This document shows, piece by piece, positions 5,073 through 64,000 of a DNA stretch of 64,000 nt. Source of the stretch: Flavobacteriales bacterium. GTDB lineage: Bacteria; Bacteroidota; Bacteroidia; Flavobacteriales; UBA7312. A model generated the notes under the pieces. It was given only the letters and a program-made list of their open reading frames with translations, was not told the origin of the DNA and did no database searches. Every line of letters begins with the position of its first letter. The stretch's first letter is position 1. The translations under genes and the position numbers were made by a program. The stretch covers positions 1 through 64,000 of the forward strand of contig JADHMO010000006.1 in NCBI GenBank assembly GCA_016779995.1, in the 5' to 3' direction.

Positions 5073-7316
5073 ATGAAAAGTATTTTAATCATTTTTACTA
5101 CAATTGTTTTAGCAACAACCCTCAACGCCCAAAGCCTTTTCGAAATGGATAATATAGCCACTATAGAAATCTATTTTCCCCAAGACAATTGGAATCAGTT
5201 GATGATTGATAATTATGATACAGAAGAATATCTAATAGCAGATTCAGTAATTTTTAATGGCTCTATGAAAGATAGTGTAGGGGTTAAGTATAAAGGTAAT
5301 AGTACCTTTTCAGAAAGTAACGATAAAAACCCACTAAACATTTCTATTGATTATATCAAGTCCAATCAAGACTATCAAGGTCATGAAACAATTAAACTTT
5401 CTAGCGGACAAAAAGACCCTTCATTTTTAAGAGAAGCCTTATCTTATGAAATAGCTAGAAAATACATGCAAGCACCACGTTCTAACTATTCTAAAGTGTA
5501 TATCAACGGTTCATATCATGGTTTGTATACCAATTCAGAATCTATAAATTCCGATTTTCAAAACAATTACCTTTATTCTGATAAAAATAATACCCGCATA
5601 AAATGTAACCCTCAAAATGTAAATAATGGAGGTTCATCTTTAGAGTATTTAGGTGCAGACTCTGCTTCTTATTACGACTTTTACGAAATGAAATCTGATG
5701 CAAGTTGGCAAGATCTTATTGACTTAACCAATGCCATTCAGAATTCAGTCAATACCATTGAAAATAGTTTTGATATAGATAGAGCTATTTGGATGTCGGC
5801 GTTTAACAATGTTCTTGTAAATCTTGATAGTTATAGCGGTCCTTTTCGTCAAAACTATTACCTCATAAAAGATGATAATAATAGAATGAATACTATAATT
5901 TGGGACTTAAACGAGTGTCTAGGTGGCTTTAAAATGGTCAATCAAGGACCGGGAGGGGGTGGCCAAACCGATCTTACTCAGCTTGATCCAATGCTAAGAG
6001 AAGGAGATGATAATTGGCCGTTATTGAATTTAATTTTTAGCAATTCAACCTATAGAAAAATGTATGTTGCTCACATGCGTACCATACTTAACGAAAACTT
6101 CGCCAACGGTTGGTATGCTGAAAGAGGCCTCGAATTGCAAAACCTAATAAAAGCAGATGTACAAGCCGACCCCAATACGTCTTATAATTACGATGATTTT
6201 ATTGCTAACCTCAACAATGACGTAGACGTAGGCGGTGGAGGCCCAGGTGGAGGAATTGTGAATGGTATAACTAATCTGATGAACTCTCGTTCAGAGTTTT
6301 TATCTACACATAATGAGCTAACCAAAACGCCGCCAACAATTAGTACCATAAGTACAACACCTAGCGTAGTACCCAGTTATTCTACAGCAAACTTAATTGT
6401 CAATGTAGAGGATGCCTCTTACGTATTTCTAGCTTATCGTTTCAGACCACAAGATAGATTTGTAAAAGTACAAATGTTAGATGATGGCAATCACAATGAT
6501 GGAGCAGCCAATGACGGCACATATGGTGTATCTGTTGATGTGGAAGCTTTAGATATGCAGTATTATATCTATGCTGAAAATAGCGAAGCAGGGATTTTCT
6601 CTCCAGAAAGGGCAGAGCACGAATACCACAACCTTCCAATTGTAGGAAGCCTTGTTATCAATGAGTTTATGGCATCTAATGTATCATCAGTTCAAGATAC
6701 ATCTTCGGGTTTCGTGCAATATGACGATTGGGTAGAACTTTATAACGGCGGTGATATAGCTATTAATTTAGGAGGCTATCATTTATCAGATAATGAAAAC
6801 GTTTTAGACAAATGGACTTTCCCAGATGTAGAAATACAAGCCGATGATTATTTAATTGTATGGCTAGACAAAGACGATGCCGCTAGTAGTGGCATACATA
6901 CCAGCTTTCAGTTAGCTGCCGATGGCGAAGAACTTTTTCTATCAACAGCCAACAATTTTATAATAGACGCTTTATTTTACAATTCTTTACCTTCAGATTT
7001 AGGGTATGCCAGAGTGCCCAATGGTAAAGGCCCTTTTGTTGTACAAACTCATACCTTTAACGCCAACAACGGTTTAGGAACATCAATAGTAGAAAACGTT
7101 AATAGTCAATTACACTTATATCCCAACCCCACCAGTGATAATCTAACTATTCAAATTCCATTTGCACAGCGTATAAAAGCCTACGACCTTTTAGGAAAAG
7201 AACATCTAAACCTTAGTAATATTCAAGGAAGTGCTAACGTTAATGTATCTTCTTGGCCAAAGGGCATTTATATATTTCTAATTGATAACGAAAGTCGAAA
7301 AATAACTATTCAATAA
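5073..7316 (+). CDS. CotH kinase family protein with lamin-tail domain and T9SS signal
   Basis: A 747-residue secreted protein. A signal peptide (about 1-19, ending LNAQ) precedes a CotH domain (about 25-420): GVKYKGNSTF, then SSGQKDPSFLREALSYEIAR, then VNLDSYSG and TIIWDLNECLGGF, which sit where the protein-kinase-like catalytic and metal-binding loops are in CotH. Glycine-rich loops (GPGGGGQ, VGGGGPGGG) interrupt it. Next come a beta-rich linker, a lamin-tail (LTD) domain (about 525-650, LVINEFMASN ... DDWVELYNGG) and a T9SS sorting domain with LYPNPTSDNLTIQI. CotH proteins phosphorylate secreted proteins in spore formers; substrates in Bacteroidota are unknown. One base separates it from the lipoprotein gene, and VTC and DUF4956 genes follow, a neighbourhood seen repeatedly with CotH. 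Confidence 0.9.
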   Translation: MKSILIIFTTIVLATTLNAQSLFEMDNIATIEIYFPQDNWNQLMIDNYDTEEYLIADSVIFNGSMKDSVGVKYKGNSTFSESNDKNPLNISIDYIKSNQDYQGHETIKLSSGQKDPSFLREALSYEIARKYMQAPRSNYSKVYINGSYHGLYTNSESINSDFQNNYLYSDKNNTRIKCNPQNVNNGGSSLEYLGADSASYYDFYEMKSDASWQDLIDLTNAIQNSVNTIENSFDIDRAIWMSAFNNVLVNLDSYSGPFRQNYYLIKDDNNRMNTIIWDLNECLGGFKMVNQGPGGGGQTDLTQLDPMLREGDDNWPLLNLIFSNSTYRKMYVAHMRTILNENFANGWYAERGLELQNLIKADVQADPNTSYNYDDFIANLNNDVDVGGGGPGGGIVNGITNLMNSRSEFLSTHNELTKTPPTISTISTTPSVVPSYSTANLIVNVEDASYVFLAYRFRPQDRFVKVQMLDDGNHNDGAANDGTYGVSVDVEALDMQYYIYAENSEAGIFSPERAEHEYHNLPIVGSLVINEFMASNVSSVQDTSSGFVQYDDWVELYNGGDIAINLGGYHLSDNENVLDKWTFPDVEIQADDYLIVWLDKDDAASSGIHTSFQLAADGEELFLSTANNFIIDALFYNSLPSDLGYARVPNGKGPFVVQTHTFNANNGLGTSIVENVNSQLHLYPNPTSDNLTIQIPFAQRIKAYDLLGKEHLNLSNIQGSANVNVSSWPKGIYIFLIDNESRKITIQ

Positions 7317-35831: not shown

Positions 35832-37703
35832 TTAATGGTGGTATTTTTTTTCATCTTCTATTTGTTGTTTAAGTTCTTTAATAGCATTAAGCAGTATCCA
35901 CATTATTGAGGAGCTGTCTAATTGTTTGACGTCTTTTAGACCATTAAGGCTATTACGTTTTTGGCTTACGGTATGAGGCAGTATTTTTTGTATGTCTTGA
36001 GCCAATACTCCAACATAGGTCTTGGTGGTATCTTGGAAGCCCGATAGACTATTATATTGATACTCTACGGTATTTATTTGTGATATTTCCTTCAGCCCAT
36101 AGGTTAAGGGGTTAATATTCTTTTTGATACGTTTATCTGAATATCCAGTCCAATTGCCTCCATTCAATTTATTAGCTTGACCATTTACTTCAAGAATTTC
36201 TTCGGGATTAGTTTCTCCTATACCTACCGAACCTTCCTTTTCTAAAGGAATACTGTTCATGAAAAAATTGTCATGAAAATAACAACGACCGTCCCTAACT
36301 TTTATACCTCCCCACATAGCCAAGCCTGGTTGGCTTAAAAATTCATTAGAAATAATATCTACCTGAACAGGATTGCCTGGCACTGTAATATCATAAACAT
36401 ATAATAAACCAGAAGCTTTATCAGGAATGTACAATCTATTTGCAGCTTCATCGATGTCAAAGGTCATAGCATTGTGAGGCAATGTGGCAATTAAAATAGG
36501 ATTAGTAGGATTGCTAATGTTGTAAATGGCGAAATCGGTTTCTGACCCTCCCGATGTTAATTGAGTCCAGCTTACCATCATTATGTTAGCATTATTATGT
36601 AACATCATCTTTTTTTCTCCCCAATTTAGATAGGGAGCACATTGTATAGAATTCAAATTAATGTTTTGAGGTTGGGTGCTAGTAATCATCCAGTTAGGCA
36701 AGTCAAAATATCTGATTTCAGTGCCGTGGGATGAGAAAAATATCCTGTCGCCCTGGATTTCTATATCGAAAAAGTCCATATATGAACTAGAGTTAGGTTC
36801 AAATTGATAATCCATAACCAATTGTGGGTTTAAAGGGTTATTTAGATCATAAATGGTCATAAATAAACTATATAATCCACCACCATACCTAAAACAAATG
36901 AGCCAACGGTTATCCTTAATGGTCATTTTTACGATGTTGTTTTCGTTTTCATAAGGAGCTGTTGGCAAGTCTATTGTAAATAAGGGGTTACAACCACCTG
37001 TTTCAGGCATAGCATCCCAGTATATCCATTGTTGTTCAAATTGTTGCCAACCTGAATCTAAAACAGTTTCAGGCCAATCGTAAAAATCGTCTAAATCTAT
37101 GGCCGTTAATTTATCTCCGCCTAAATACAAAATGTTATTGTGCCAAGCCACATCTCTAACGTTTCTAAGACAAGCATCATCATTATTTTTGATGTATCCC
37201 ATTGGTTTTAATTCATCGGGGTCTTGTATATCAAAATAAGCCAACTTATTAGTACCATCTTCTTCTATTCCAGGAATAAAAACATAATTGTCTGTAAACA
37301 AAGGGGTAAAACATTCTGTTAAAAATCGAAAACTTTCGGTATATCCAAAAATACTGAGTAGCGAATCACTTTTCCATTTATTGCCGGTCCAGGAAAGGGT
37401 TTCCCCTTTTCTACGGGCGAGTACACTTGATAGTTCTACTCCATTGCCGTCTGATATATTGAGGTATTGGTTGCATACTTTTAGCTCTTGTCTAAGCCGC
37501 ATCCATTTGTTGCTATTGCTCCTCAAAAAGATAGAAGTGTCTTGTGTATTGTATAGAATAGAGCCGTCTAAGGGGTTGCCTATACTTTGCATCTCTAAAG
37601 AGTTGAGGTTTTTACTTCTTAGTATAGTATTATTCAAGGGTACTTGTGCTACTGCTGAGAATAGCTCTCCTATCAGTAAAAGTATAATTATAATTTTTTT
37701 CAT
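35832..37703 (-). CDS. Secreted beta-propeller (LVIVD-type) protein with S74 C-terminus
   Basis: A 623-residue protein with signal peptide MKKIIIILLLIGELFSAVAQ. Its N-terminal module LRSKNLNSLEMQSIGNPLDGSILYNT parallels the downstream gene. Residues about 130-480 contain LVIVD-like propeller blades (AYFDIQDPDELKPMGYI, ITVPGNPVQVDIIS, FAIYNISNPTNPILIATLP), each pairing a named event with its value. The last about 110 residues form an S74 domain (YSDKRIKKNINPLTYGLKEI ... YVGVLAQDIQKILPHTVS). A longer frame from 37730 overlaps the end of the previous gene and is less likely. It is the middle gene of a three-gene unit; the function may be surface display or cell-surface assembly. Confidence 0.8.
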   Translation of the reverse strand: MKKIIIILLLIGELFSAVAQVPLNNTILRSKNLNSLEMQSIGNPLDGSILYNTQDTSIFLRSNSNKWMRLRQELKVCNQYLNISDGNGVELSSVLARRKGETLSWTGNKWKSDSLLSIFGYTESFRFLTECFTPLFTDNYVFIPGIEEDGTNKLAYFDIQDPDELKPMGYIKNNDDACLRNVRDVAWHNNILYLGGDKLTAIDLDDFYDWPETVLDSGWQQFEQQWIYWDAMPETGGCNPLFTIDLPTAPYENENNIVKMTIKDNRWLICFRYGGGLYSLFMTIYDLNNPLNPQLVMDYQFEPNSSSYMDFFDIEIQGDRIFFSSHGTEIRYFDLPNWMITSTQPQNINLNSIQCAPYLNWGEKKMMLHNNANIMMVSWTQLTSGGSETDFAIYNISNPTNPILIATLPHNAMTFDIDEAANRLYIPDKASGLLYVYDITVPGNPVQVDIISNEFLSQPGLAMWGGIKVRDGRCYFHDNFFMNSIPLEKEGSVGIGETNPEEILEVNGQANKLNGGNWTGYSDKRIKKNINPLTYGLKEISQINTVEYQYNSLSGFQDTTKTYVGVLAQDIQKILPHTVSQKRNSLNGLKDVKQLDSSSIMWILLNAIKELKQQIEDEKKYHH

Positions 37704-37719
37704 GCTGTTGTCTCTTATT

Positions 37720-40700
37720 TTACCATCCATTGTCTAGCTCTAAATTTAGCGTTTCTGTATGAGGGCATCCATTGCTGTTAGTAGTGTTATAATAGTAAGT
37801 GCCACTGCAATAGTAGGTTTGTCCGTGCCAAGTGTAAGATTCTCCTGCACTGACATCGAAAATTTGGCTAGAACTGTAATTGAGAGTTAGTCCCAATATA
37901 GCAGTTGCATTACACCCTTGAACATTTACAGTTGCTGTTTTTATACCGCCGACATTGTAGGTTTGTCCGTTTGCTGACCAATTGTATTCGTCACATTCTG
38001 TTACATTTTGTATGGGCAATGCAGGGTTGTTGATGGTCAAATTTAGAATGGTTGTATATTCACACCCCGATTGGTCAGTATATGAAGAAGTATAAGAACC
38101 GCTACAATAGTACGTAACTCCATGCCAATTGTAAGAACCATTGGCCGTATGATAGATGGTTTGAGTTCCTCCGGCTGGGTTTATAGTAAGGTTTAATTGG
38201 TGTTGACTTTGGCAATTGGTAGAACCGGTAGTATGGTTGTAAGTGCCTGATTGGTAATAGGTTTGGTTATTAATAGGCCAAGTGTAACTAAGACAAGCAG
38301 CCATATTTGTTGTGGTATTATTGGCGGGTTCTATGGTGAGGTTGAGGGTTTCGGTATGTTCACAGCCATAACTGTTGGTAGTTTGATAACTATAAATACC
38401 ACTATTAGTGTAAGTGTTGCCGTTCCAAGTATAACTCTGACATGTTGTTACGTATTCGGAGTTGTTGGTAGGTTCGTGAATGGTAAGATTAAGTATATCG
38501 CTTACCAAACAGCCATCTAAATAATAACTCACACTGTAAGTACCACTTTGGTCATAGGTTTCTCCATTCCATTGGTAGGGTTCACAACTATTAACTGTTT
38601 CTGAAGTTCCCTGCGGGTTAGTAATGGTTAGGTGTACTGTTTTGGTGGTGCAATTGGTTACGGGTTCTATTTCATAATAGGTTCCACTAGTGGTACGAGC
38701 TATGCCCCCCACAAAATAGTGGTTACAAGCCGATACGTTTTCTTCCACATGTTCTTCTATGTTGAGGTGCAACCAATATTGTTGTGGACAAACTTGTGAA
38801 CCTGAAGGAGGTACTATATGTTCATAATACCCCGATTCGGAATAGGTCTCTCCGCTAATGCTCCAGGGATAGGGAGCGCAAGTGGTTACAAGATTATAGA
38901 TAGGTTCGTCAGGGTCTACTATGGTTAAGTTGAGATTGGTGGTTAGACAGCCTGACAAACTACTATAGGTGTAGTTGCCTGAGCTAGTATAAGTGACTGT
39001 TGGGTCTGTTTCGGTATTGGTATAACTACCACATGCTGTTACGCTTTCATTAATCGTTAAGGCTGCTGGGTGTACTGTAATTTGTTTGCTTTCGCTGTTG
39101 TTACCGTTAGCATTGGTAACGGTAAGAGTTACAGTATAACTACCCGCTGTGTTGTAAGTGTGAGTTGGATTTTGTTGGGTGGAGTTATTGCCATCTCCAA
39201 AATTCCATGCCCAAGAGGTAGGGCTAAATAGCGACTCATCGTTAAACTGTAAACTTTGACCCACACAAGTGGCATCGTTGGAAGAAAAATTGGCAATAGG
39301 TGCTAGTGTATTGCCCGAAATATCCAATTTCCAAACTCCTCGACCGTGAGTACCAGCGTATAAATAACCATTATTGAAATTGATTTCCAAATCATAGACT
39401 GGAGTAGTGGGTAAAGAATTGAGGTTGTGTTGTTGCCACATCTCATTAGCATTAGCTGTTATAGATTTTCGAAATACGCCTAAATCAGTGCCTATGTATA
39501 AAAAAGGGTAAATAAAATTACTTGGGTCATTTACAGTATCTAGGGTTATACAGTATACACCTGATTCTACGGTTGTAAAACCTGCCATTAATAGACCTGA
39601 AAAATTAGTCCAATTATCTCCCCCATCGGTTGAAGTATAAACTCTATTGTTTGCACTTCCTCCACTGAAAGTAATCCATATATGATTAGGGTCGCTTGGA
39701 TTGCTGTGTATGTCAGAAATGACACTCCAATTGTTTAAGCCATTAGAAATATTGGTCCAACTTGCACCGCTATTGTTGGTTCTGTAAATATTGTTGTGGT
39801 GTGAAAAGTAAAAAATATTATCGTTGGTGGTGAGTTCTATTTCATCAATATCAGAACCATTGACTAAGCCTGATGTTGCTGATAGTGGCGTCCAATCTTC
39901 TCCTCTGTTGTTGGTGAGATACAACTGACTAAAACCCGCTACTAAGCGTTGAGAGTTATTCGGAGACATTTCGTAGGGGGTTTCCCATGCCCCATTGGTT
40001 TCGGGCGATATGTTGTTCCAACTTATTCCAGCATCATCGCTTCGTACCATCATACCGTTTTGTATTTCAGCATAGAGTCTGTTGGAGTTAGTAGGGTCAA
40101 TGATGCATTGCATACCATCGCCACTGTAAATGGCAGCCCAATTATCGGAACTGCTATAATCCGAGCTGTGCCTTAGAGTACCGTTGTCTTGAGCTCCAGC
40201 AATAATATGTTCATCAATTACTTTTTCTACATTGATACTGTAAAATTGAGTGATTTCTAAATCCTCGGACATATCTTGCCAACTATTGCCATCTCGTTTG
40301 CCAATACCACCATCTGAACAGACGTATAAAGTGTTGTTGTGTGGGTTAAATTCCAAAGCATGTATATCGGCATGTATGTAGCTGTTTTGTCCTATAGCGC
40401 TCCATATTCCACGAGCATTCCAGTTGCTACCTCCATCGGTAGATTGCCAAATATTTACGCCTCCCACCCAGAGGTCATTTGCGTTACTAGGGTTAACGGC
40501 AATGGCTAAATCGTACCAACCTTGCCCTCCATAGTCCGTGCCGTCGTCGTTCCAGCCAAGTAAATTTGGTGTAGATGTAGATGGAGAGTTACAACGCAGA
40601 CGTTCGCTAAAGTTTTGACCTGAATCGGTGGAACGATAGACGCCATAAAGTGATCCTTCGGTATCACAAAAAACAACATATACATAATTACTATTAGCAG

Positions 40701-41894: not shown

Positions 41895-44084
41895 CTAATG
41901 AACCATCAAGCGTTCTTTATACAGTCTTTCTTTGAAACGCACTTGCACTACATACACACCAGCAGTTAAATGACTAACATCAATGGATTTATTCCACGAG
42001 TCATCGTGAGAATAAACGCTTTGGCCCATAGCGTTGAGAATAGTTATGTTTTCCACTGGCATATCGGTATGCATTTCTAGCTGAAAGTAGTTGTTGCTAG
42101 GGTTAGGGTACAGACTAAAGGGCTTACCCAAATAATCTGTCAGTAGTTGGCGCATAACATGCGGTCGAATACTAGCAAAAGCATACAAACTTTCTACAGC
42201 TTCTAACCAAGCGTTGCTGTTGTCTGGCACATTCCATCGTAGCTGATGTTCTAGCACTTCAGCTTTGTATAGATTCTCCATCTCTTTAATGTGTTGTATA
42301 AGGTTGGGGGTAGAAAAAGTGCTGCTTAGTAGAATGTCAAAACGTCTTCTAAATTGCTCCCTAAAGCTATGGTTCCTCAACAGTTGGCGGATAATATAGA
42401 CTGACCATTCCTCAAAATCTTGAGACGTATTTTGTTCGTTGATTAAATCTGCCATGAGGTTGTAATATTCGTAGCTCATGCACTCGTCACAGTCAAAAAA
42501 TAGCCACCGCCATTTGCCGTCCTCTTGAGCTTTCCAATACTTCACATTATTGTGTGGCCAGTCGGTATTGGCCAAAAACAATTGGGCGCAATAGTAGTCT
42601 ATGATATTGTCAATATCGATATGTGAGCTAATGTAATCGTAATGCTCATCGAGACTCATATCATTCTCATTCATATAGTTTTTGATATTGAGAAAGTCTT
42701 GGTTGTCGCCTTCTTCTACCTGAGCATTATGAGTCAATAAATGGATATTGTCCACGTCAAAATAATCGCTGATGAAATATTCGTCTGTTCGTTCGTTGAG
42801 GTGGTGTATGCCCCAGTATTCTCCATTGATAAAAACAATAACTTCTTGTGTGCTGGGGTGTTCCAAATTCATGTCAATAAGGATGCGCTGAGCGACTTCA
42901 TTTTTGAACATAGTATTTTTCCAATCGTTGGAGCTAGCAGACCTTAGGATTATCCTTTTGAAAGAGTCCATTTCTTTGCCCTCGAAAAAGGGGTATTTTA
43001 TTCGTGATTTGCCATAAGAACCTCTAGCATATAGCAGTAAAGATTTTTGAGGAAAAGTTCGACTTATATTGCCGTTGGTACGTATGCCAACAGTCTGATT
43101 GACTTGTCGTTTGCCCTCTAAGTCGAAATACTCGAATTGTGCGATTCGCTCCCAAGCCCTACCTCTTTGGTAATAGTTGGTGTTTTGCCCTTTGACATAG
43201 ATTCCTTGCTCTGGGTCAAAAAGGTTGTTGGGGTCTGTAGATAGAGAAACGACAGGGAAGGTGTATCGCTTTTCTACTTGAGGGTTTATGAAAAAACTAT
43301 GGGTATAAACTGGGCTGATACGTTGCCCATTTTCAAAGGCTGCCGACTTAATGAGGTGTCCTTTAAAGACCTTTCCTTGTGGTCTTTGCCATTGGTCTGA
43401 TGTGGGTATTTCTGAAATTATATTGTCTTGGTCGGAGGCGTCTTTTAATGCCAAAGCAGTAGTATATAAAAGGTCATTGGTGGTGGGCTCGGCACCATTA
43501 AGAGTGTAGTATATTTGAGCTCCGCTATGGCTCGGCACTATAGATAGGTCAATGCTATTTTCATGCCAACCGCTAGTGTGTGAAAAGGATAAACTACTAT
43601 ACAATAAGTCTATGCTATCGTTGGGGCTGTTGGGAGTGGGGCTTTGGAGTTTTGCCAAAACATCGCTTCCGTCTGGAAAACGACCAAAAGATTGGTCTGC
43701 ATCCAGTGGCACAGCAGGCAAGGAATCCAACAATCCCAAATTCTTATGGCTGAGAAAAAGAGCTTCGCCCTGACTGCTTATTTTAAAATTACAATCCATC
43801 TCCATATCCAAACCGCTGGCATAAACGCTAAAAAATCCACCTCCTTGAATATAACGGTTAGGCAATTGCCATTGCTCCATTTCTTGCCTATCGTCAGAAA
43901 GGAAGTAGTCAGAAAGTAGTATGCTATCGCTACTGCTGTTGTATAATTCTATCCAATCGGGGTAGTTGTTTTGTTCTGTTGCCCAAGCCGTATTATTGAG
44001 TGACATCATCTCGTTGATGTGCAGTTGTGCATTTGTATTGATGCTACAACATACTATTCCTATAATTAAGATGATAAGCCGCAT
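41895..44084 (-). CDS. CotH kinase family protein with N-terminal lamin-tail domain and T9SS signal
   Basis: A 729-residue secreted protein with signal peptide MRLIILIIGIVCCSINTNAQ. Domains in order: lamin tail (about 20-135, LHINEMMSLNNTAWATEQNN then DWIELYNSSSDSI), a chitobiase-like beta-sandwich (about 170-230, IYYTLNGAEPTTNDLLY), CotH (about 265-640; GIRTNGNISRTFPQKSLLL, NTDWPHNNVKYW and WRWLFFDCDECMSY hold the kinase-like residues) and a T9SS sorting domain (SLYPNPSNNYFQLEM ... LTAGVYVVQVRF). Compared with the CotH at 5073 the lamin tail is at the other end. It starts one base after the stop of the barrel-like gene. Confidence 0.9.
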   Translation of the reverse strand: MRLIILIIGIVCCSINTNAQLHINEMMSLNNTAWATEQNNYPDWIELYNSSSDSILLSDYFLSDDRQEMEQWQLPNRYIQGGGFFSVYASGLDMEMDCNFKISSQGEALFLSHKNLGLLDSLPAVPLDADQSFGRFPDGSDVLAKLQSPTPNSPNDSIDLLYSSLSFSHTSGWHENSIDLSIVPSHSGAQIYYTLNGAEPTTNDLLYTTALALKDASDQDNIISEIPTSDQWQRPQGKVFKGHLIKSAAFENGQRISPVYTHSFFINPQVEKRYTFPVVSLSTDPNNLFDPEQGIYVKGQNTNYYQRGRAWERIAQFEYFDLEGKRQVNQTVGIRTNGNISRTFPQKSLLLYARGSYGKSRIKYPFFEGKEMDSFKRIILRSASSNDWKNTMFKNEVAQRILIDMNLEHPSTQEVIVFINGEYWGIHHLNERTDEYFISDYFDVDNIHLLTHNAQVEEGDNQDFLNIKNYMNENDMSLDEHYDYISSHIDIDNIIDYYCAQLFLANTDWPHNNVKYWKAQEDGKWRWLFFDCDECMSYEYYNLMADLINEQNTSQDFEEWSVYIIRQLLRNHSFREQFRRRFDILLSSTFSTPNLIQHIKEMENLYKAEVLEHQLRWNVPDNSNAWLEAVESLYAFASIRPHVMRQLLTDYLGKPFSLYPNPSNNYFQLEMHTDMPVENITILNAMGQSVYSHDDSWNKSIDVSHLTAGVYVVQVRFKERLYKERLMVH

Positions 44085-55598: not shown

Positions 55599-56918
55599 AT
55601 GAAAAATTACCTACTTACGCTCATTATTAGTATCTGTTCTGCGCAACTTTCAGCTCAAACGGCACCTAATATAAATTTCACCGATTTAGATGGTACGACC
55701 CATGATTTATATTCCTATTTAAATGATGGATATACTGTCGTGTTGGATTTCTCTTATGAATATTGCGGTCCTTGTAAAGATTGGTCAAATAATGTTGGTC
55801 ATGAAATATGGGCAGAGCATGGTCTTGATGGGGACAACACTATACGTATGTTTCATTTTGACGTCTATGATTTTTCGGATCAAGCTGTTGCAAGTTATAC
55901 TCAAGCTTGGGGCATCAATTATCCTGTTATTAATTTAACCTCTAGTACCGACGTTCCAGAATATCCGCAAGAAGGTTATCCGACAATATATATCATTTGT
56001 CCTGATAAGTCGTATTTTGAAACGGGAGGTTATGGCTTTCCATCATCTGAGATGGATGCTCAATACTATTTAGCAAGTTGTAGAGGAGCCGATTTATCTA
56101 ATAATAAAGCTGTGGTAGCAACAGGTTCACCAACTTCTTCTACCATTTGCGACAGTCCTCCATTGACTTTTTCTCCTAAAATACACGTGTACAACAGTGA
56201 GTCTGCCGTAAGTGACAGTGCTACTTTTTTCTTTATGGATGAGTACCCAGTAAAAGTTTTTATCAACGGAGAGTATTATTCAACTCAAACTATAGACCCT
56301 TGGGCTAATGGATCGGTAACCAATTTGGATGATGAAGCCTACCTCGAGCCTATTCCGGTAAGCCCTGGTGACGAAATCGCTTTAGTTATTGATTTTGAGG
56401 GAGATAATTATCCAGATGATGATACATCTAAAGTGACTATTCCCAACAATATCAACACGCTCAGTTCAAGCGATACGACTTTAATTATTTCTGCATCAGC
56501 TAGTAATGAAATCTATTATGATGTTTATAATGCAGCAGGAGTGCCTGTAAGTTATGGCGAAACACCAGGACAATTTACTCTTTCTAAAGATAGTTGCTAC
56601 AGTATTTCTTTTCTAAATGCTAATGTAACTGGCGGAAGTCTGAAAGATGTTTCGGGGAATATATTGGTGTCTTATGAAGTAGGAGATTTTATCGGTTATC
56701 AAACGCCTAGGTTATTTTTTCATGTAGGAATGAATACGGTTGATATTACAGAACAAGACTTTTCAGATGAGCAATTGGTAGATTTTTACTTTTTAGATTT
56801 ATTAGGCAAGCGTTGTAGTTCCATTCATTTGAATGATTTGCCTCAGGGCATTTATGTTCAAGTAAAGCACTATCAAAATGGACAAGTACGAACAGAAAAA
56901 ATAGTTAAGAATAATTAA
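55599..56918 (+). CDS. Secreted thioredoxin-fold T9SS protein, array copy 1 (CGPC)
   Basis: A 439-residue protein. Signal peptide 1-20 (ends QLSAQ). Residues about 24-165 form a redoxin/TlpA-like domain: NFTDLDGTTHDLYSYL, then FSYEYCGPCKDW with CxxC at 56-59, and GYPTIYIICPD with the likely cis-proline at 128. A beta-rich middle (about 185-290) has FSPKIHVYN, VFINGEYYSTQT and the acidic DFEGDNYPDDDT (265-276), possibly a calcium site. A second beta segment (about 300-385) precedes a short sorting-like end, YFLDLLGKR ... LPQGIYVQVKHYQNGQ. It should be exported to the cell surface or outside. Function unknown; disulfide or redox chemistry is possible since the CxxC is intact. Confidence 0.82.
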   Translation: MKNYLLTLIISICSAQLSAQTAPNINFTDLDGTTHDLYSYLNDGYTVVLDFSYEYCGPCKDWSNNVGHEIWAEHGLDGDNTIRMFHFDVYDFSDQAVASYTQAWGINYPVINLTSSTDVPEYPQEGYPTIYIICPDKSYFETGGYGFPSSEMDAQYYLASCRGADLSNNKAVVATGSPTSSTICDSPPLTFSPKIHVYNSESAVSDSATFFFMDEYPVKVFINGEYYSTQTIDPWANGSVTNLDDEAYLEPIPVSPGDEIALVIDFEGDNYPDDDTSKVTIPNNINTLSSSDTTLIISASASNEIYYDVYNAAGVPVSYGETPGQFTLSKDSCYSISFLNANVTGGSLKDVSGNILVSYEVGDFIGYQTPRLFFHVGMNTVDITEQDFSDEQLVDFYFLDLLGKRCSSIHLNDLPQGIYVQVKHYQNGQVRTEKIVKNN

Positions 56919-56940
56919 AAACACATAAAAAAATGAAGCT

Positions 56941-58287
56941 ATGAAAATGTTAAAATTATTAAAAATAACGCTATTAGCTACTGGTATTTTCTTTGTGCTA
57001 AACACAAAAGCTCAAGTTGCGCCTAACATTAGCTTTACCGACGTGACTGGCACAACACATGATATTTATTCTTATTTGAATGAGGGTTATACTGTTTTTT
57101 TGGATTTCTCTTATCAATTTTGTGGGCCGTGTAAAGATTGGTCAATTAATGTTGGTCATGATATGTGGGCAGAGCATGGTCCAGATGGAGACAATACTGT
57201 ACGTATGTTTTATTTTGATATTGACCCAGTAAGTGATGCCGATGTTTTAAGCTATACCCAACAGTGGGGCGTAAACTATCCAGTAATCAATTTATCGAAT
57301 GGTTCAGATATTCCTGAATATCCTCAAGAAGGTTATCCAACAATATATATTATTTGTCCCGACACTTCATTTTATAAAACGGTTGGATATGGGTACCCTT
57401 CTGCCGAAATGAATACATCTTATTATTATGCTTCTTGTAAGGGTGCTGATTTAAGTAATAATAAAGTTTTTGTTGAAGCGGCTGCTCCAACTTCATCTAT
57501 GCTTTGTAATGCTACGCCACTTCTCTTTTCTCCTAAAATACATATCTTTAATAGTGAAACGGGAGTTGGTATTAATCAAGATTTTTTCTTTAATGAAGAA
57601 TACGACGTTAAGGTATTTGTAAATGACGAATACCATTCTACTGTTGTTGTAGATCCTTATGCACCAGGCAATGGACCAATTTCAAATATGCAAAATGAAG
57701 CTTATCTCGAGCCTTTTAACGTCAATCCTGGTGATGAAGTTACTTTAGTTATTGATTTTGAAGGTGACAATTATCCCGATGATGATACAGCTAGAGTTAC
57801 TGTTCCTTCTACCATTAACACTAATATTTCTGTTGATTCCAATCTAGTAGTTTCGGCCAATACTAACGGATTGGCTGATGTTTTCTTTGAGATACACAAC
57901 TCTGAAGGTCAAAGTGTATATAACAATACTAATTCACAAGAGTTTAGCCTACCTCCAGATAGTTGTTACACTATATACTTTACTAATAGCCACCTTTATA
58001 GTGCAAGCTTGAAAGATACGCAAGGTAATACGCTAGTCTCCTATACTGCAGGACAGTTTGATGGTTATCAAACGCCTAGGTTATACTTTCATGTAGGAAT
58101 GAATACCGTTGATATAACAGAGCAAGATTTGTCAGATAAGCAATTGATAGAATATTACTTTTTAGATTTACTAGGCAAGCGTTACAGTTCCATTCATTTG
58201 AATGATTTGCCTCAAGGCATTTATGTTCAAGTAAAGCACTATCAAAATGGACAAGTACGAACAGAAAAAATAGTCACTAATCAATAA
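56941..58287 (+). CDS. Secreted thioredoxin-fold T9SS protein, array copy 2 (CGPC)
   Basis: A 448-residue paralogue of copy 1 with the same plan: signal peptide ending TKAQ, redoxin domain with FCGPCKDW (CxxC 61-64), GYPTIYIICPD, the VFVNDEYHSTVV and DFEGDNYPDDDT middle, and the same short C-terminus. Its last about 220 bases are almost identical to copy 1 (from GGTTATCAAACGCCTAGG to near the stop), while the middle is clearly diverged. It starts 22 bases after the copy 1 stop and ends 11 bases before copy 3, so an operon is likely. Confidence 0.82.
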   Translation: MKMLKLLKITLLATGIFFVLNTKAQVAPNISFTDVTGTTHDIYSYLNEGYTVFLDFSYQFCGPCKDWSINVGHDMWAEHGPDGDNTVRMFYFDIDPVSDADVLSYTQQWGVNYPVINLSNGSDIPEYPQEGYPTIYIICPDTSFYKTVGYGYPSAEMNTSYYYASCKGADLSNNKVFVEAAAPTSSMLCNATPLLFSPKIHIFNSETGVGINQDFFFNEEYDVKVFVNDEYHSTVVVDPYAPGNGPISNMQNEAYLEPFNVNPGDEVTLVIDFEGDNYPDDDTARVTVPSTINTNISVDSNLVVSANTNGLADVFFEIHNSEGQSVYNNTNSQEFSLPPDSCYTIYFTNSHLYSASLKDTQGNTLVSYTAGQFDGYQTPRLYFHVGMNTVDITEQDLSDKQLIEYYFLDLLGKRYSSIHLNDLPQGIYVQVKHYQNGQVRTEKIVTNQ

Positions 58288-58298
58288 ACATTTAAATT

Positions 58299-59666
58299 AT
58301 GCAGTTTCAAAACAAAAAAATACTAGTTGCACTTTTAGTCATTTTATTTTCTTTAAGTAGCGAGGCTCAAGTTGCGCCTGATGCAAGTTTTACAGACTTG
58401 GAGGGGAATTCACACAATATATATAGCTACCTAGATGATGGCTACAAGGTTATTTTAGTTTATGGAGGCTATGAAGGTGCTTGTTGGATTGGTGAATGGC
58501 AAACTGCTGTTGGTTCCGAAATTTGGGATGAATTTGGTCCTAGTGGAGATAATACTGTTCGTATGTTCTTTATTGATGAAACTGACTTGATGAATTCAAC
58601 AGATCAATCTGTAGCAAATTATACGGCTCAAATGGGCGTTGAATATCCCGTAGTAAATCTAGATAATGCCTTACCTGGTTATCCTGTTGATGGAACTCCG
58701 GCTTTTTACGCCATTTGTTTGGATAAGAGCTATCATTCTGGTGGTGGTTTTGGAGAGGAAAGTAGTTATGAACAAATGAAAGCATTTTTATTAGATTGTG
58801 ATGGTGAAGACCTTTCTAATGATATATATTTTAGTGGCTTAAAAGATAAACCTCGATTTTGTACTAAAGGCGATAATCATAGTTTTATTCCAATCTTACA
58901 TCTTATGTTTTCGGAGTTAAATGAAAACAATACAGATAGTGCAATCCTTACTGGAAATTATCTAAATCAAGCTTATAAAATTTATTATTATTTGAATGGT
59001 TCTATACAAGATACTTTTAACATGCCTCCACCTACTGGAGAGCATGGCATGCATGCCGATCAACCCACGCTACCTATTGTAACATTAAATTCAGGTGATG
59101 TGATACGTTATGTGTTAGATTATCCTAACGATTCTTATTCAGGAAATAACGAATATGAGTATACTATTCCTTCAAATCTAGAAGACTCTCCAATATCTAC
59201 TACGAACTTACACAAACTAGTTTTGGGAGATAATCAAGGGGGTGGTTACTTTTCAATAAAAGCTCCCCTTGAAGATGGGGGGACTTTACTTCATGATTTT
59301 GAACAAATTAATCAAATTACTTTAGATGATGGGAATTGTTATTCTGTAAAATTCGCAAATAACTTATTCTCGGTTGTTGCTTTGCAAGACGAGAATAGTA
59401 ACGGAGTTGTAACAGTAAACGAACTAGACTTTTATCCCATAAACCAAACACCTTGGCTATATTTTAATGTAGATTCTAATGCTGAACCAACAACCATTAG
59501 AGAAGATAATCTTGAAAACAAATCGATTACGGCTATAAAATACTATGACATCAACGGAAAAAGGATTTCTCTTGGAAACGGAAAACAACCTTTTATCTCT
59601 TACATACAAGTCATACACTTTGAAGACGGTAGTGTTACAACTAAAAAATTCTTAAGAAAATATTAG
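58299..59666 (+). CDS. Secreted thioredoxin-fold T9SS protein, array copy 3 (CxxC lost)
   Basis: A 455-residue paralogue, the most divergent complete copy. The signal peptide ends SSEAQ and is encoded by a 75-base stretch identical to that of copy 4. The usual CxxC is replaced by GACWIGEW (one Cys, at 62), so dithiol chemistry is lost. The cis-proline region reads GTPAFYAICLD. The acidic middle motif is reduced to LDYPNDSYSGNNEYEY, and the C-terminus IKYYDINGKRISLGNGKQPF is more like an ordinary sorting domain. Suggests a structural or binding function, or a decoy of the redox-active copies; this is inference. Confidence 0.78.
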   Translation: MQFQNKKILVALLVILFSLSSEAQVAPDASFTDLEGNSHNIYSYLDDGYKVILVYGGYEGACWIGEWQTAVGSEIWDEFGPSGDNTVRMFFIDETDLMNSTDQSVANYTAQMGVEYPVVNLDNALPGYPVDGTPAFYAICLDKSYHSGGGFGEESSYEQMKAFLLDCDGEDLSNDIYFSGLKDKPRFCTKGDNHSFIPILHLMFSELNENNTDSAILTGNYLNQAYKIYYYLNGSIQDTFNMPPPTGEHGMHADQPTLPIVTLNSGDVIRYVLDYPNDSYSGNNEYEYTIPSNLEDSPISTTNLHKLVLGDNQGGGYFSIKAPLEDGGTLLHDFEQINQITLDDGNCYSVKFANNLFSVVALQDENSNGVVTVNELDFYPINQTPWLYFNVDSNAEPTTIREDNLENKSITAIKYYDINGKRISLGNGKQPFISYIQVIHFEDGSVTTKKFLRKY

Positions 59667-59716
59667 AAAAAACATACGATAAAACTATACCATATTTAAT
59701 ATAAAACTTTGATTAC

Positions 59717-61039
59717 ATGGAATTTCAAAACAAAAAAATACTAGTTGCACTTTTAGTCATTTTATTTTCTTTAAGTAGCGAGGCTCAAGTTGCGCCTAAC
59801 TTGACATTTACTGATTTAGATGGGATGACTCATACCATTCATGATTATACAGAAGCCGGATATAAGGTATTATTGGATTTTTCTTACGAAACGTGCAATC
59901 CTTGTAAAGAATGGGCTATTAATGTGGGGCATGATTTATGGCAAAATCATGGTCCTGACGGCGACAATACCTTACGTATGTTCCATATAGACCCTAAGCC
60001 TGGAACTGATCAGGATGTTGCTAATTATACGCAAACATGGGGAGTTGAATATCCTGTAGTGAATATGCAATCTGTACCGTCAGAATACCCTTTAGATAGT
60101 TATCCACGTTTGTTTTTCATCTGTGCCGATAAAAGTTATTATGAGTCTGGAGGCTATGGCTATCCGTCCTCAATAATGAAGGCGCAATATTTTCTTGAGA
60201 TATGTAATGGTTCTAATTTAACGGGTAATAAAACTTTCATTAGTGCCACTCCTGCCACATCTTCTACTTTATGTAATTCATCACCATTTTCTTATACTCC
60301 ACAAATTCATGTGTTTAATAATGACGTTGTTGGAATAGGAAGTGGTGCACCACAATTTGAAGACCCTTATGACGTAAAAATATTTATCAATGGCAGTCAC
60401 CATTCTACCCAAACGGTAGACCCCTGGGCAGATATGTCGGTAAGCAACTTTGATGATATATCTTACTTACAGCCTATTCCTGTTAGTCAAAATGATTTAT
60501 TAGCTTTAGTGATAGATGTTGAAGGAGATAATTTCCCTGATGATGACACTATTTATGTCCAAATTCCATCCTCGGTTAGTACGCCAACATCAGCTAGCAC
60601 TTCACTCATTGTAGAAGCGGGCTCTATATATGATGTTTATGATTCTTCCAACGAAAAGGTACATGATGGTTATGGCAACGGCTCTTTTACTTTGCCTGAA
60701 GGCAGTTGTTATAGCATAGAGTTTTGGAATGCGCAATACTATTCAGGAGTGCTTAAAGATGGTGCTTCAGGCTCAACCTTAATTCAATTTCAGCCAGGAG
60801 ATTTTGAAGGTTCTGTTTCGCCACGCTTGTACTTTAATGTGGTGACTATTCCTACTCCTATAAGTGTACAAGAAGACCATTTAAACGCTAAAGTTATGGA
60901 TACCTATTTCCTTAATCTCTTAGGCAAACGCTTATCTACAAACAACATAGAAGACTTACCTAAGGGTGTTTATTTACAACTTACCAAATACGAAAACGGT
61001 GAAGTTCGAGCTAAAAAAGTAACTCAAAATCACAGGTAA
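59717..61039 (+). CDS. Secreted thioredoxin-fold T9SS protein, array copy 4 (CNPC)
   Basis: A 440-residue paralogue. The signal peptide equals that of copy 3; the redoxin active site is TCNPCKEW (Cys 60 and 63), changing the GP dipeptide to NP, which in thioredoxin-fold proteins shifts the redox potential. Further motifs: SYPRLFFICAD, VFNNDVVGIGSG, IFINGSHHSTQT, and DVEGDNFPDDDT. The C-terminus YFLNLLGKRLSTNNIEDLPK GVYLQLTKYENGE is nearly identical in DNA to copy 5. A 50-base gap from copy 3 is the largest in the array and has no clear terminator. Confidence 0.82.
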   Translation: MEFQNKKILVALLVILFSLSSEAQVAPNLTFTDLDGMTHTIHDYTEAGYKVLLDFSYETCNPCKEWAINVGHDLWQNHGPDGDNTLRMFHIDPKPGTDQDVANYTQTWGVEYPVVNMQSVPSEYPLDSYPRLFFICADKSYYESGGYGYPSSIMKAQYFLEICNGSNLTGNKTFISATPATSSTLCNSSPFSYTPQIHVFNNDVVGIGSGAPQFEDPYDVKIFINGSHHSTQTVDPWADMSVSNFDDISYLQPIPVSQNDLLALVIDVEGDNFPDDDTIYVQIPSSVSTPTSASTSLIVEAGSIYDVYDSSNEKVHDGYGNGSFTLPEGSCYSIEFWNAQYYSGVLKDGASGSTLIQFQPGDFEGSVSPRLYFNVVTIPTPISVQEDHLNAKVMDTYFLNLLGKRLSTNNIEDLPKGVYLQLTKYENGEVRAKKVTQNHR

Positions 61040-61059
61040 TTTTTAAAAAAATACTAGCT

Positions 61060-62391
61060 ATGAAAAATTCATTATACTCTTTTTTTATAATTCTGACTAT
61101 AATATTTATTTCGATACAAAGTAATGCTCAGTTATCACAAAATGCGCCTAACTTGACATTCACTGATTTAGAGGGTGTTACACATAATTTACATGATTAT
61201 TTAGATCAGGGGTTTAAGGTAATACTAGAATATTCATACAAAAGTTGTTATCCTTGTGAGCGTTGGGCGTTGGATGTTGGGCACCCTTTATGGCAAGAAC
61301 ATGGCCCCAATGGAGATAATACTATTCGTATGTTTTATGTAGATCCAAAGCCAGAAACGGACGAATATGTAGCTCAATATACTCAAGAGTGGGATATTCA
61401 ATACCCTGTTATTAATATAAACTCACCTTATTCGGAGTACCCAGCAATTTATTTTCCTCGCTTGTATTTCTTTTGTCCTGACAAATCGTATTTGGTAAAC
61501 ATTTCTAATTCTAAGAATGCTGTAAATTACTACCTTAGTCTATGTGATGGACACGACTATACCAATAATATTCAATTGTACTCTGCTGACATACCTAATT
61601 CTTCTACTGTTTGCGGAGCAAATACATTTAGCTATTCTCCAAGAATTGAATTAATAAAAACGGACTACATGTTATTTGACTCTAACTCTAGTCTTTTTGA
61701 CCAGCCTTACGATGTTCAAATATTTGTCAATGGGGTGTATCATTCTACACAAACTTTGGATCCAACTGCAGATGGTTCTTATAATAGTTCAGGTGATAGT
61801 GATTCTTTTTTAGATCCTATCACAGTTTCTTATAACGATGAGGTGACTTTTGTCATTGATTTTGAGGGAGACAACTACCCTCAAGATGATACGCTGACGG
61901 TCGTAATGCCAGCTTCGTCTGACACGCCTCCTACTGCAAGTCATAATAAATTCAAAATTGATGCTGGTGATGGCTTAGAGTATACCATAAGAAATTCTGA
62001 TTACGAAGTCGTTAAAGAAGGGATAGGCTCTTCTTCTGAATTTGAATTGCAAGCAGGAAGTTGTTACAGTATAGTCTTTAAATATGTACAACATTATGAG
62101 GGAGCACTAAAAAATAATGTAACAGGGGAGAATGTGATTGCTTTCCAACAAGGAGATTTTACACATGATTATTTTTCACCTGTACTTTTCTTTAATGTGA
62201 TTAGTACAGTAGATATTAAGGAAGATACTTTTAATAGTGCTGCAAAAGACAGCTATTTCCTTAACCTTTTGGGTAAACGCTTATCAGAGACAAAAATAGA
62301 AGACTTACCTAAGGGTGTTTATTTACAACTTACCGAATACGAAAACGGTGAAGTTCGAGCTAAAAAAGTAACTCAAAATCATAAATATTAA
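61060..62391 (+). CDS. Secreted thioredoxin-fold T9SS protein, array copy 5 (CYPC)
   Basis: A 443-residue paralogue with signal peptide ending SNAQ, active site SCYPCERW (Cys 63 and 66; dipeptide YP), YFPRLYFFCPD, a middle with IFVNGVYHSTQT and DFEGDNYPQDDT, and a short C-terminus sharing an 86-base near-identical block with copy 4 (one mismatch). The CPYC-type dipeptides of glutaredoxins are related but reversed here. Same strand, 20 bases after copy 4 and 16 before copy 6. Confidence 0.82.
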   Translation: MKNSLYSFFIILTIIFISIQSNAQLSQNAPNLTFTDLEGVTHNLHDYLDQGFKVILEYSYKSCYPCERWALDVGHPLWQEHGPNGDNTIRMFYVDPKPETDEYVAQYTQEWDIQYPVININSPYSEYPAIYFPRLYFFCPDKSYLVNISNSKNAVNYYLSLCDGHDYTNNIQLYSADIPNSSTVCGANTFSYSPRIELIKTDYMLFDSNSSLFDQPYDVQIFVNGVYHSTQTLDPTADGSYNSSGDSDSFLDPITVSYNDEVTFVIDFEGDNYPQDDTLTVVMPASSDTPPTASHNKFKIDAGDGLEYTIRNSDYEVVKEGIGSSSEFELQAGSCYSIVFKYVQHYEGALKNNVTGENVIAFQQGDFTHDYFSPVLFFNVISTVDIKEDTFNSAAKDSYFLNLLGKRLSETKIEDLPKGVYLQLTEYENGEVRAKKVTQNHKY

Positions 62392-62407
62392 TTTAATAAA
62401 CAGAACC

Positions 62408-63748
62408 ATGAAAAATTTTTTACGAATCCTTTTTATATTATTGTTCGTAACTCTTTACGGGACAACTAATATTCAAGCACAACAAGGTGACGCTACCGAT
62501 ATTACCTTTACAGATTTGGACGGCAACACCTACAATCTTTTCAACCTAACTTCTTCGGGTTATAGGGTAATTTTAAATTTTGCTTCAGTTTCGTGTGGCC
62601 CTTGTCAACATTGGGCTGAAAATGTAGGCGAAGCACTTTGGCAAGAGTATGGTCCCAATGGCGACAACAGTCTGCGTATATTTCACATAGATTATAAACC
62701 TAGAACTGACGAAACTGTCTCTGAATATATAGATGATTGGGAAATTACCTATCCTGTTGTGAATTTGCAATCAATACCTGATGGTTACAATCATACCGAC
62801 GATTTTTCTCCACGTTTCTACATTTGTACAGATAATAAGTATTTTTTCACTGGTGGTGGCGGTTATAGTGCGTCTTTTTCAATGTTATATTCATATTATT
62901 TCCTCGACATATTGTGTGAAGGCTATGACTTGAATAAAGATGTACAGATTCTAGAACTTGGACTCCCCACGCCAAAAACGTTATGTGAATCGACACCTCT
63001 TTACTATAGCCCTAGAATATATATCAATCGATTAGGAGATGCATTACTTAATGTTCAGCCTGATACTCCGTTTTATTATCCTTATGATATTGAGATATTT
63101 ATAAATGGAGAATACCATTCTACTCAAACGCATGACCCAGCTGCAGATGGTTCTTATAATTCTGGATTCGATGAAACCTTTTTAGATCCTATACCTGTCA
63201 ATTTTAATGATAAAGTGTTGGTGAAGATTGATTTTCCGGGAGATAATTTCCCTTATAATGATACAATGTCTGTTATCATACCATCTTATGTTAGCACCCC
63301 AACTTCTACTACTACTAAATTATCAGCACAGACATGTTCAGATTACTCATTTCAAGTTTATGATTCTAATGGCGCGCTAATACATTCTGCTATTGGTTAT
63401 TCGGAGTTTGAGTTAGAGGCAAATAGTTGTTATCAAATTAATTTCTCAAATATTCAACAGTGCGCTGGTGTTTTGAAAGATTTTGCTACAGGTGAGGAAT
63501 TGATATACATGGATGCAGGAGAATATGCTGGCTATACTTCACCCGGTTTCTATTTTAATGTCATTAGCACTTCAGATATAGAAGAAAGTTCTATTAATAG
63601 TGCTATTAAAGATAGCTACTTCCTCAATCTCTTGGGAAAACGTCTATCAGCGACAAATTTAGAGGATTTACCTAAGGGTGTTTATCTACACCTTACCGAA
63701 TATGAAAACGGTAAAGTACAAACTAAAAAAGTAACTCCAATTTGGTAA
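62408..63748 (+). CDS. Secreted thioredoxin-fold T9SS protein, array copy 6 (CGPC)
   Basis: A 446-residue paralogue: signal peptide ending NIQAQ, active site SCGPCQHW (Cys 63 and 66), DDFSPRFYICTD, middle with IFINGEYHSTQT and DFPGDNFPYNDT (the acidic motif is weaker), and C-terminus YFLNLLGKRLSATNLEDLPK GVYLHLTEYENGK. The GP dipeptide returns to that of copies 1 and 2 although the rest is closer to copies 4 and 5, which is consistent with exchange between copies. 34 bases precede copy 7. Confidence 0.82.
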   Translation: MKNFLRILFILLFVTLYGTTNIQAQQGDATDITFTDLDGNTYNLFNLTSSGYRVILNFASVSCGPCQHWAENVGEALWQEYGPNGDNSLRIFHIDYKPRTDETVSEYIDDWEITYPVVNLQSIPDGYNHTDDFSPRFYICTDNKYFFTGGGGYSASFSMLYSYYFLDILCEGYDLNKDVQILELGLPTPKTLCESTPLYYSPRIYINRLGDALLNVQPDTPFYYPYDIEIFINGEYHSTQTHDPAADGSYNSGFDETFLDPIPVNFNDKVLVKIDFPGDNFPYNDTMSVIIPSYVSTPTSTTTKLSAQTCSDYSFQVYDSNGALIHSAIGYSEFELEANSCYQINFSNIQQCAGVLKDFATGEELIYMDAGEYAGYTSPGFYFNVISTSDIEESSINSAIKDSYFLNLLGKRLSATNLEDLPKGVYLHLTEYENGKVQTKKVTPIW

Positions 63749-63782
63749 TAACTAAAAATAAGTAACATAAATCATAAATGAA

Positions 63783-64000
63783 ATGAAAAGTCTTAAAACA
63801 CTATTTAAAGCGGTATTCTTACTAGGCTTTATTTTCTCATCACGTCTCAGCGCTCAAGTAAATGAAGCTCAAGATAAAACCTTTACTGACCTGTCAGGAG
63901 TGACTCATAATTTGTTCACTTATCTTGATTCTGGTTATATAGTTATGATAGATTTTTCTTTCATAGGTTGTGGTTCATGTGAGTATTGGGCTAAAGAAAT
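63783..64000 (+). CDS. Secreted thioredoxin-fold protein, array copy 7 (CGSC), cut by window edge
   Basis: Only the first 72 codons are visible. They encode a signal peptide (MKSLKTLFKAVFLLGFIFSS, ending LSAQ), then KTFTDLSGVTHNLFTYLDSG and FSFIGCGSCEYWAKE, with the CxxC at 63-66 and dipeptide GS. The start is the second ATG of ATGAAATGA; the first meets a stop after one codon. The array continues beyond the window, so its full size is unknown. Confidence 0.85.
   Translation, partial: MKSLKTLFKAVFLLGFIFSSRLSAQVNEAQDKTFTDLSGVTHNLFTYLDSGYIVMIDFSFIGCGSCEYWAKE

Follow-up and report, generated by a model that had tools for sequence, protein, structure and literature searches.

Among the closest described systems, HBP35 of P. 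gingivalis is exported by the T9SS and depends on its two Cys for the reduction of insulin, both facts being experimental (PMC2907840, PMC3120885). The protein carries a signal peptide, an N-terminal thioredoxin-like motif and a C-terminal T9SS signal, and binds hemin through residues 135–344 and not through CxxC (PMC2907840). Etrx1 and Etrx2 of Streptococcus pneumoniae are ResA-like, surface-displayed and present in more than one copy; they are lipoproteins with CcdA and MsrAB2 as partners (PMC3914529). Prevotella intermedia has proven short T9SS sorting domains (short CTDs) and is described as the one species for which both the short and the long kind are reported (PMC11969387).

The locus analyzed here lies in the small genome of a Flavobacteriales-like bacterium, at the end of the stretch of DNA under study (64,000 nucleotides; the window). 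At positions 55599–64000 of the + strand, six full ORFs and a seventh that is cut at the window end are arranged head to tail. Their products share with HBP35 the signal peptide, the thioredoxin-like motif and the C-terminal signal; whereas HBP35 is reported as one gene and binds hemin, the array comprises seven tandem copies with one CxxC-less branch, and the comparison rests on the N-terminal and C-terminal parts of the proteins. Fold, CxxC and cis-Pro are as in ResA/TlpA (PRK03147, 4nmu, 1st9), with a sequence match that is weak but consistent, and the differences from ResA/TlpA consist of extra beta modules, a sorting tail and the lack of a link to cytochrome c maturation genes. In contrast to Etrx1/Etrx2, the proteins are of T9SS type, and no partner gene was found in the array locus. 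The original prediction had set the array apart from the usual single-copy proteins, which holds for the number of genes; T9SS-secreted thioredoxins as such are known from HBP35, and the same genome encodes two more outside the array. We consider it probable that the array represents a lineage-specific, T9SS-exported tandem expansion whose CxxC copies act as thiol-disulfide oxidoreductases outside or on the cell.

Organization of the array

The seven proteins retrieve one another in a search of their own genome with E values of 1e-70 to 1e-144, and their pairwise identity is 28–63%, which, together with the exact gene positions, agrees with the seven head-to-tail paralogues originally described. 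Each is composed of a signal peptide, a ResA/TlpA-like thioredoxin domain, beta-rich modules and a C-terminal tail (Table 1). Because the intergenic gaps measure 11–50 bp and a terminator-like hairpin is located 3' of copy 7 (L010:3192-3220), the array is likely expressed as one transcript; this hairpin was the only convincing element in sigma-70 and terminator scans, which scored barely above shuffled sequences. A search for RNA elements returned none. A phage origin was discarded, as the array has no match among phage records, and so was a functional link to the arsC/Spx-like, DMT and metB-like neighbours, which are in place in genomes that lack the array.

Table 1. Genes of the array and their landmarks (positions in the window)
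Gene	Position	Strand	Length	Active site	Other features
Copy 1	55599..56918	+	439 aa	CGPC 55764-55775	cis-Pro segment YPTIYIIC 55977-56000; short CTD motif B at 56787
Copy 2	56941..58287	+	448 aa	CGPC 57121-57132	
Copy 3	58299..59666	+	455 aa	CxxC-less, GACW 58476-58487	cis-Pro kept, TPAFYAIC 58695-58718
Copy 4	59717..61039	+	440 aa	CNPC 59894-59905	
Copy 5	61060..62391	+	443 aa	CYPC 61246-61257	
Copy 6	62408..63748	+	446 aa	CGPC 62594-62605	Asn instead of Asp six residues ahead of the first Cys
Copy 7	63783..64000 (gene ends at C6:65168)	+	461 aa, first 72 inside the window	CGSC 63969-63980	

More than half of every array protein consists of the beta part, which would probably provide contacts or display, binding partners or surfaces. 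The size of this part, and the precedent of hemin binding by residues 135–344 of HBP35, outside CxxC (PMC2907840), are what one would expect if capture of haem or another ligand were the main work of the proteins and the thioredoxin part were auxiliary. Such a division of labour is nonetheless the least probable of the readings considered: searches returned no PDB chain similar in sequence to the middle modules, and no haem or metal motif was seen.

Thioredoxin domain and active-site residues

The thioredoxin domain of copy 4 is predicted by AlphaFold, from an input of six sequences, with pLDDT values mostly above 90, in a model whose middle and tail parts are weak. Its best Foldseek match is ResA (4nmu), with a target-normalized TM of 0.83. 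The thioredoxin part of copy 3 matches ResA as well, with a TM of 0.68–0.78 (target-normalized 0.72), in a model that is poor overall (mean pLDDT 60); 4nmu and 1st9 are the ResA structures matched by copies 4 and 3. At the sequence level, ResA was found with an E value of 1.2e-5 in an alignment-based PDB sequence profile search, and the NCBIfam ResA model PRK03147 matches five copies at E 1e-5 to 1e-6, with 24–29 bits (best 28.8) against a curated cut-off of 170 bits. Pfam thioredoxin-type models reach 12–16 bits in a single-sequence scan, under their gathering scores, and the Pfam scans of the array proteins gave no match to Omp28. In terms of ResA/TlpA membership, the fold is present in copies 4 and 3 by Foldseek, the proline at the cis-Pro position is shared by every one of the seven copies, the CxxC-less one included, and the CxxC active site occurs in six of the seven, copy 3 being the exception.

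Across the eight CxxC sequences of the locus (three genomes, 26–63% identical), invariance is limited to 45 of 417 ungapped columns. Among these are the Trp three residues after the second Cys, the cis-Pro, three more Cys and both active-site Cys, the invariance of the latter two being partly selected, as the rows were picked for having CxxC. The residue six positions before the first Cys, Asp26 in thioredoxin, belongs to the extended active site (PMC3961690). This position is occupied by D, E or N in every CxxC row and by D in relatives of another family (f15), whereas the two CxxC-less rows have V or M there. The Asn of copy 6 is presumably also the residue of ResA. The joint loss of the −6 acid and of CxxC, seen in two related rows and so without statistical weight, is consistent with CxxC being catalytic in the other copies. 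Because fold, CxxC, cis-Pro and −6 acid are kept despite strong divergence, a redox function of the CxxC copies is likely. The six would most likely exchange disulfides at or beyond the cell surface, by analogy with HBP35. No extracellular route of re-reduction is evident in the genome, where a single DsbD-like protein could serve the periplasmic side only. Sequence and predicted structure bear out the original view of secreted thioredoxin-fold proteins of T9SS type, with catalytic residues conserved and the chemistry absent from one member; the check that it proposed, of fold and cis-proline, gave ResA as the best structural match and a proline invariant in the seven.

The original prediction also gave the dipeptides in array order exactly as found here (GP, GP, none (GACW), NP, YP, GP, GS), and proposed that they tune the redox potential copy by copy. 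The six CxxC copies do differ in this respect (GP, GP, NP, YP, GP, GS), but GP is common to three of them, the positions adjoining the motif vary as much as the dipeptide, and NP occurs both in copy 4 and in the single copy of a relative (G004), which looks like inheritance. Single-copy f15 relatives from other species carry IP, PP, TP and TS, showing that the dipeptide can drift in sequence without any array. In archaeal thioredoxins, potentials measured by voltammetry tracked folding stability and not a dipeptide 'rheostat', and the notion of a potential set by the dipeptide alone is disputed (PMC4395160). Tuning through the dipeptide therefore gains no positive support and appears very unlikely.

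C-terminal tails and export

The genome encodes T9SS machinery (PorU sortase, 1355 bits) and long-CTD cargos, with 69 TIGR04183 domains over the cut-off. On the array tails this model scores 17 bits at best against a cut-off of 23, and none of the seven proteins is in the genome list. The tails measure about 45–50 residues and have Gly-basic, GxY and terminal Lys motifs in common; in their alignment G15, Y31, G40 and K46 are invariant and K16, L26 and G29 nearly so. In an hhalign profile comparison, they match the genome's own long T9SS CTDs with an E value of 5e-5 and a probability of 67%. The sorting-like end of the original prediction is thus upheld by the profile match and falls under the cut-off of the standard model.

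The short CTDs of Prevotella intermedia are similar in length (about 45–50 residues), in their Gly and basic, GxY and terminal Lys motifs, and in an Ile-containing cleavage-like segment upstream (PMC11969387). Motifs B, D and E, by which the short tail is recognized in P. intermedia, are all found in the array, where the spacing from B to D is longer; furthermore, the array belongs to a different order of Bacteroidota and is known from sequence. We interpret the tail as a short sorting signal of T9SS type, through which the proteins, each with a Sec signal peptide, would be exported by the T9SS. A similar short tail, FFDLFGRKINQIENQPKGVYIRSGKKIFRQ, ends an unrelated 388-aa protein without a Pfam match (L073:1489-2655 (−); G000:C1:89488-90654), which is likely another short-CTD cargo. 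These tails suggest a class of short T9SS sorting signals in another order that the standard profile misses, so that secreted proteins would be under-annotated.

T9SS sorting domains are also present, together with lamin-tail domains, in two CotH-kinase proteins of the window (5073-7316, +; 41895-44084, −), which are possible secreted protein kinases.

Gain, loss and recombination at the locus

At an E value of 1e-18, copy 4 has matches in 14 of 398 genomes of the order and 2 of 396 of the phylum; several of these, for instance in G182, are long-CTD relatives outside the short-tail family. Counting paralogues in relatives, as the original prediction had proposed, revealed that the locus between the arsC/Spx-like and metB-like genes holds seven copies in the source genome (G000), two in G006, which belongs to another genus of the same family, and one in G004, whereas G002 and G005 have none. 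Only G000 and G006 were found to carry several copies at this locus, with counts elsewhere that may be too low, as four candidates per genome were scored. The G004 copy (L040:8251-9609) contains an internal in-frame TAA after residue 352, which would remove the tail; the frame past it, tail included, remains readable. G003 retains a scar from the 3' part of copy 7, between flanking proteins that are 90–98% identical; the array was therefore lost recently in this genome. Absence from a draft genome can be a misassembly, although G003 does have the scar. Since copies are lost by deletion or nonsense mutation, the family appears to be dispensable.

Copy 4 is closest to the G004 copy, likewise CNPC. 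The dN of this pair is 0.39, compared with 0.04–0.13 for the flanking genes, a contrast to be read as relative only, as dS is saturated to a similar degree in the array pair and in the flanks, and in a loose grouping in which the two copies may not be strictly orthologous. Pairwise dN/dS values are below 1 (about 0.2 for copies 1 and 2), and therefore point to constraint on average. In the signal-peptide region, 75 bp are identical between copy 3 (58305..58379) and copy 4 (59723..59797, + strand), whose DNA identity outside this block is about 30–60%. Exact blocks are also found at the 3' ends, in the tail, of copies 1 and 2 (59 bp; 56847 / 58216) and of copies 4 and 5 (46 bp). Because the exact blocks sit amid diverged sequence, they indicate recombination or gene conversion between copies. 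Copies would thus be born by tandem duplication, swap ends by recombination, diverge fast in mid-gene and be lost by deletion or nonsense mutation. The array has the appearance of a known kind of family whose copy number rises and falls rapidly, and not of a purpose-built redox series, and it suggests that T9SS-type thioredoxins can form a tandem family of fast turnover.

The same dynamics are compatible with a variable surface coat, or a family for recognition, that diversifies because phages, grazers or neighbours exert pressure on it, and in which CxxC would mainly be a structural disulfide. Divergence far faster than that of the flanking genes, copy numbers of 7, 2, 1 and 0 with a recent deletion of the whole array, exchange of ends between copies and the persistence of a CxxC-less branch all speak for this main rival, which may coexist with redox activity. 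It remains the less convincing account, and we regard it as possible but doubtful: CxxC, the −6 residue, cis-Pro and Trp are kept as a set, a structural disulfide would not need the −6 residue to be lost along with it, the pairwise dN/dS values lie below 1, and no hypervariable repeats or switch elements were seen.

The CxxC-less branch has a history of its own. One of the two copies of G006 is CGPC, and the other (g6b) shows ACW without CxxC. Copy 3 and this protein form a clade with support values of 97/95, or 89/88 once the signal peptide and the active-site region are left out, and share the conserved motif ACW together with one Cys in a shifted position. Because of this clade, the loss of CxxC is most likely older than the split of the genera, with a branch kept since that spans both, and a recent decay of copy 3 was rejected as its origin. 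G085 C14, a weak match of the CxxC-less query, is in fact a regular CGPC protein. Copy 3 and g6b would represent an old branch that has kept the fold, probably with a binding role and without catalysis. An unlikely extension is a surface repertoire that recombines and has diversified under biological conflict at the cell surface, with active redoxins and this old 'pseudo-redoxin' acting together; the active copies might then have their substrates or partners held by the inactive one.

The source genome has a further conserved locus of redox type at L011:2586-10957 (G000:C3:22.6-31.0 kb; also L046 and L048), which is kept in relatives with a small array or none. Its products are what we take to be two Omp28-like proteins, two long-CTD T9SS thioredoxins with WCGPCW, a TlpA-like protein and a DUF6029-like protein.

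Elsewhere in the window, a 632-aa protein (35832-37730, −) has a C-terminal Peptidase_S74 (endosialidase chaperone) domain, typical of phage tail fibres, and adjoins a 1349-aa Sortilin/PKD protein.
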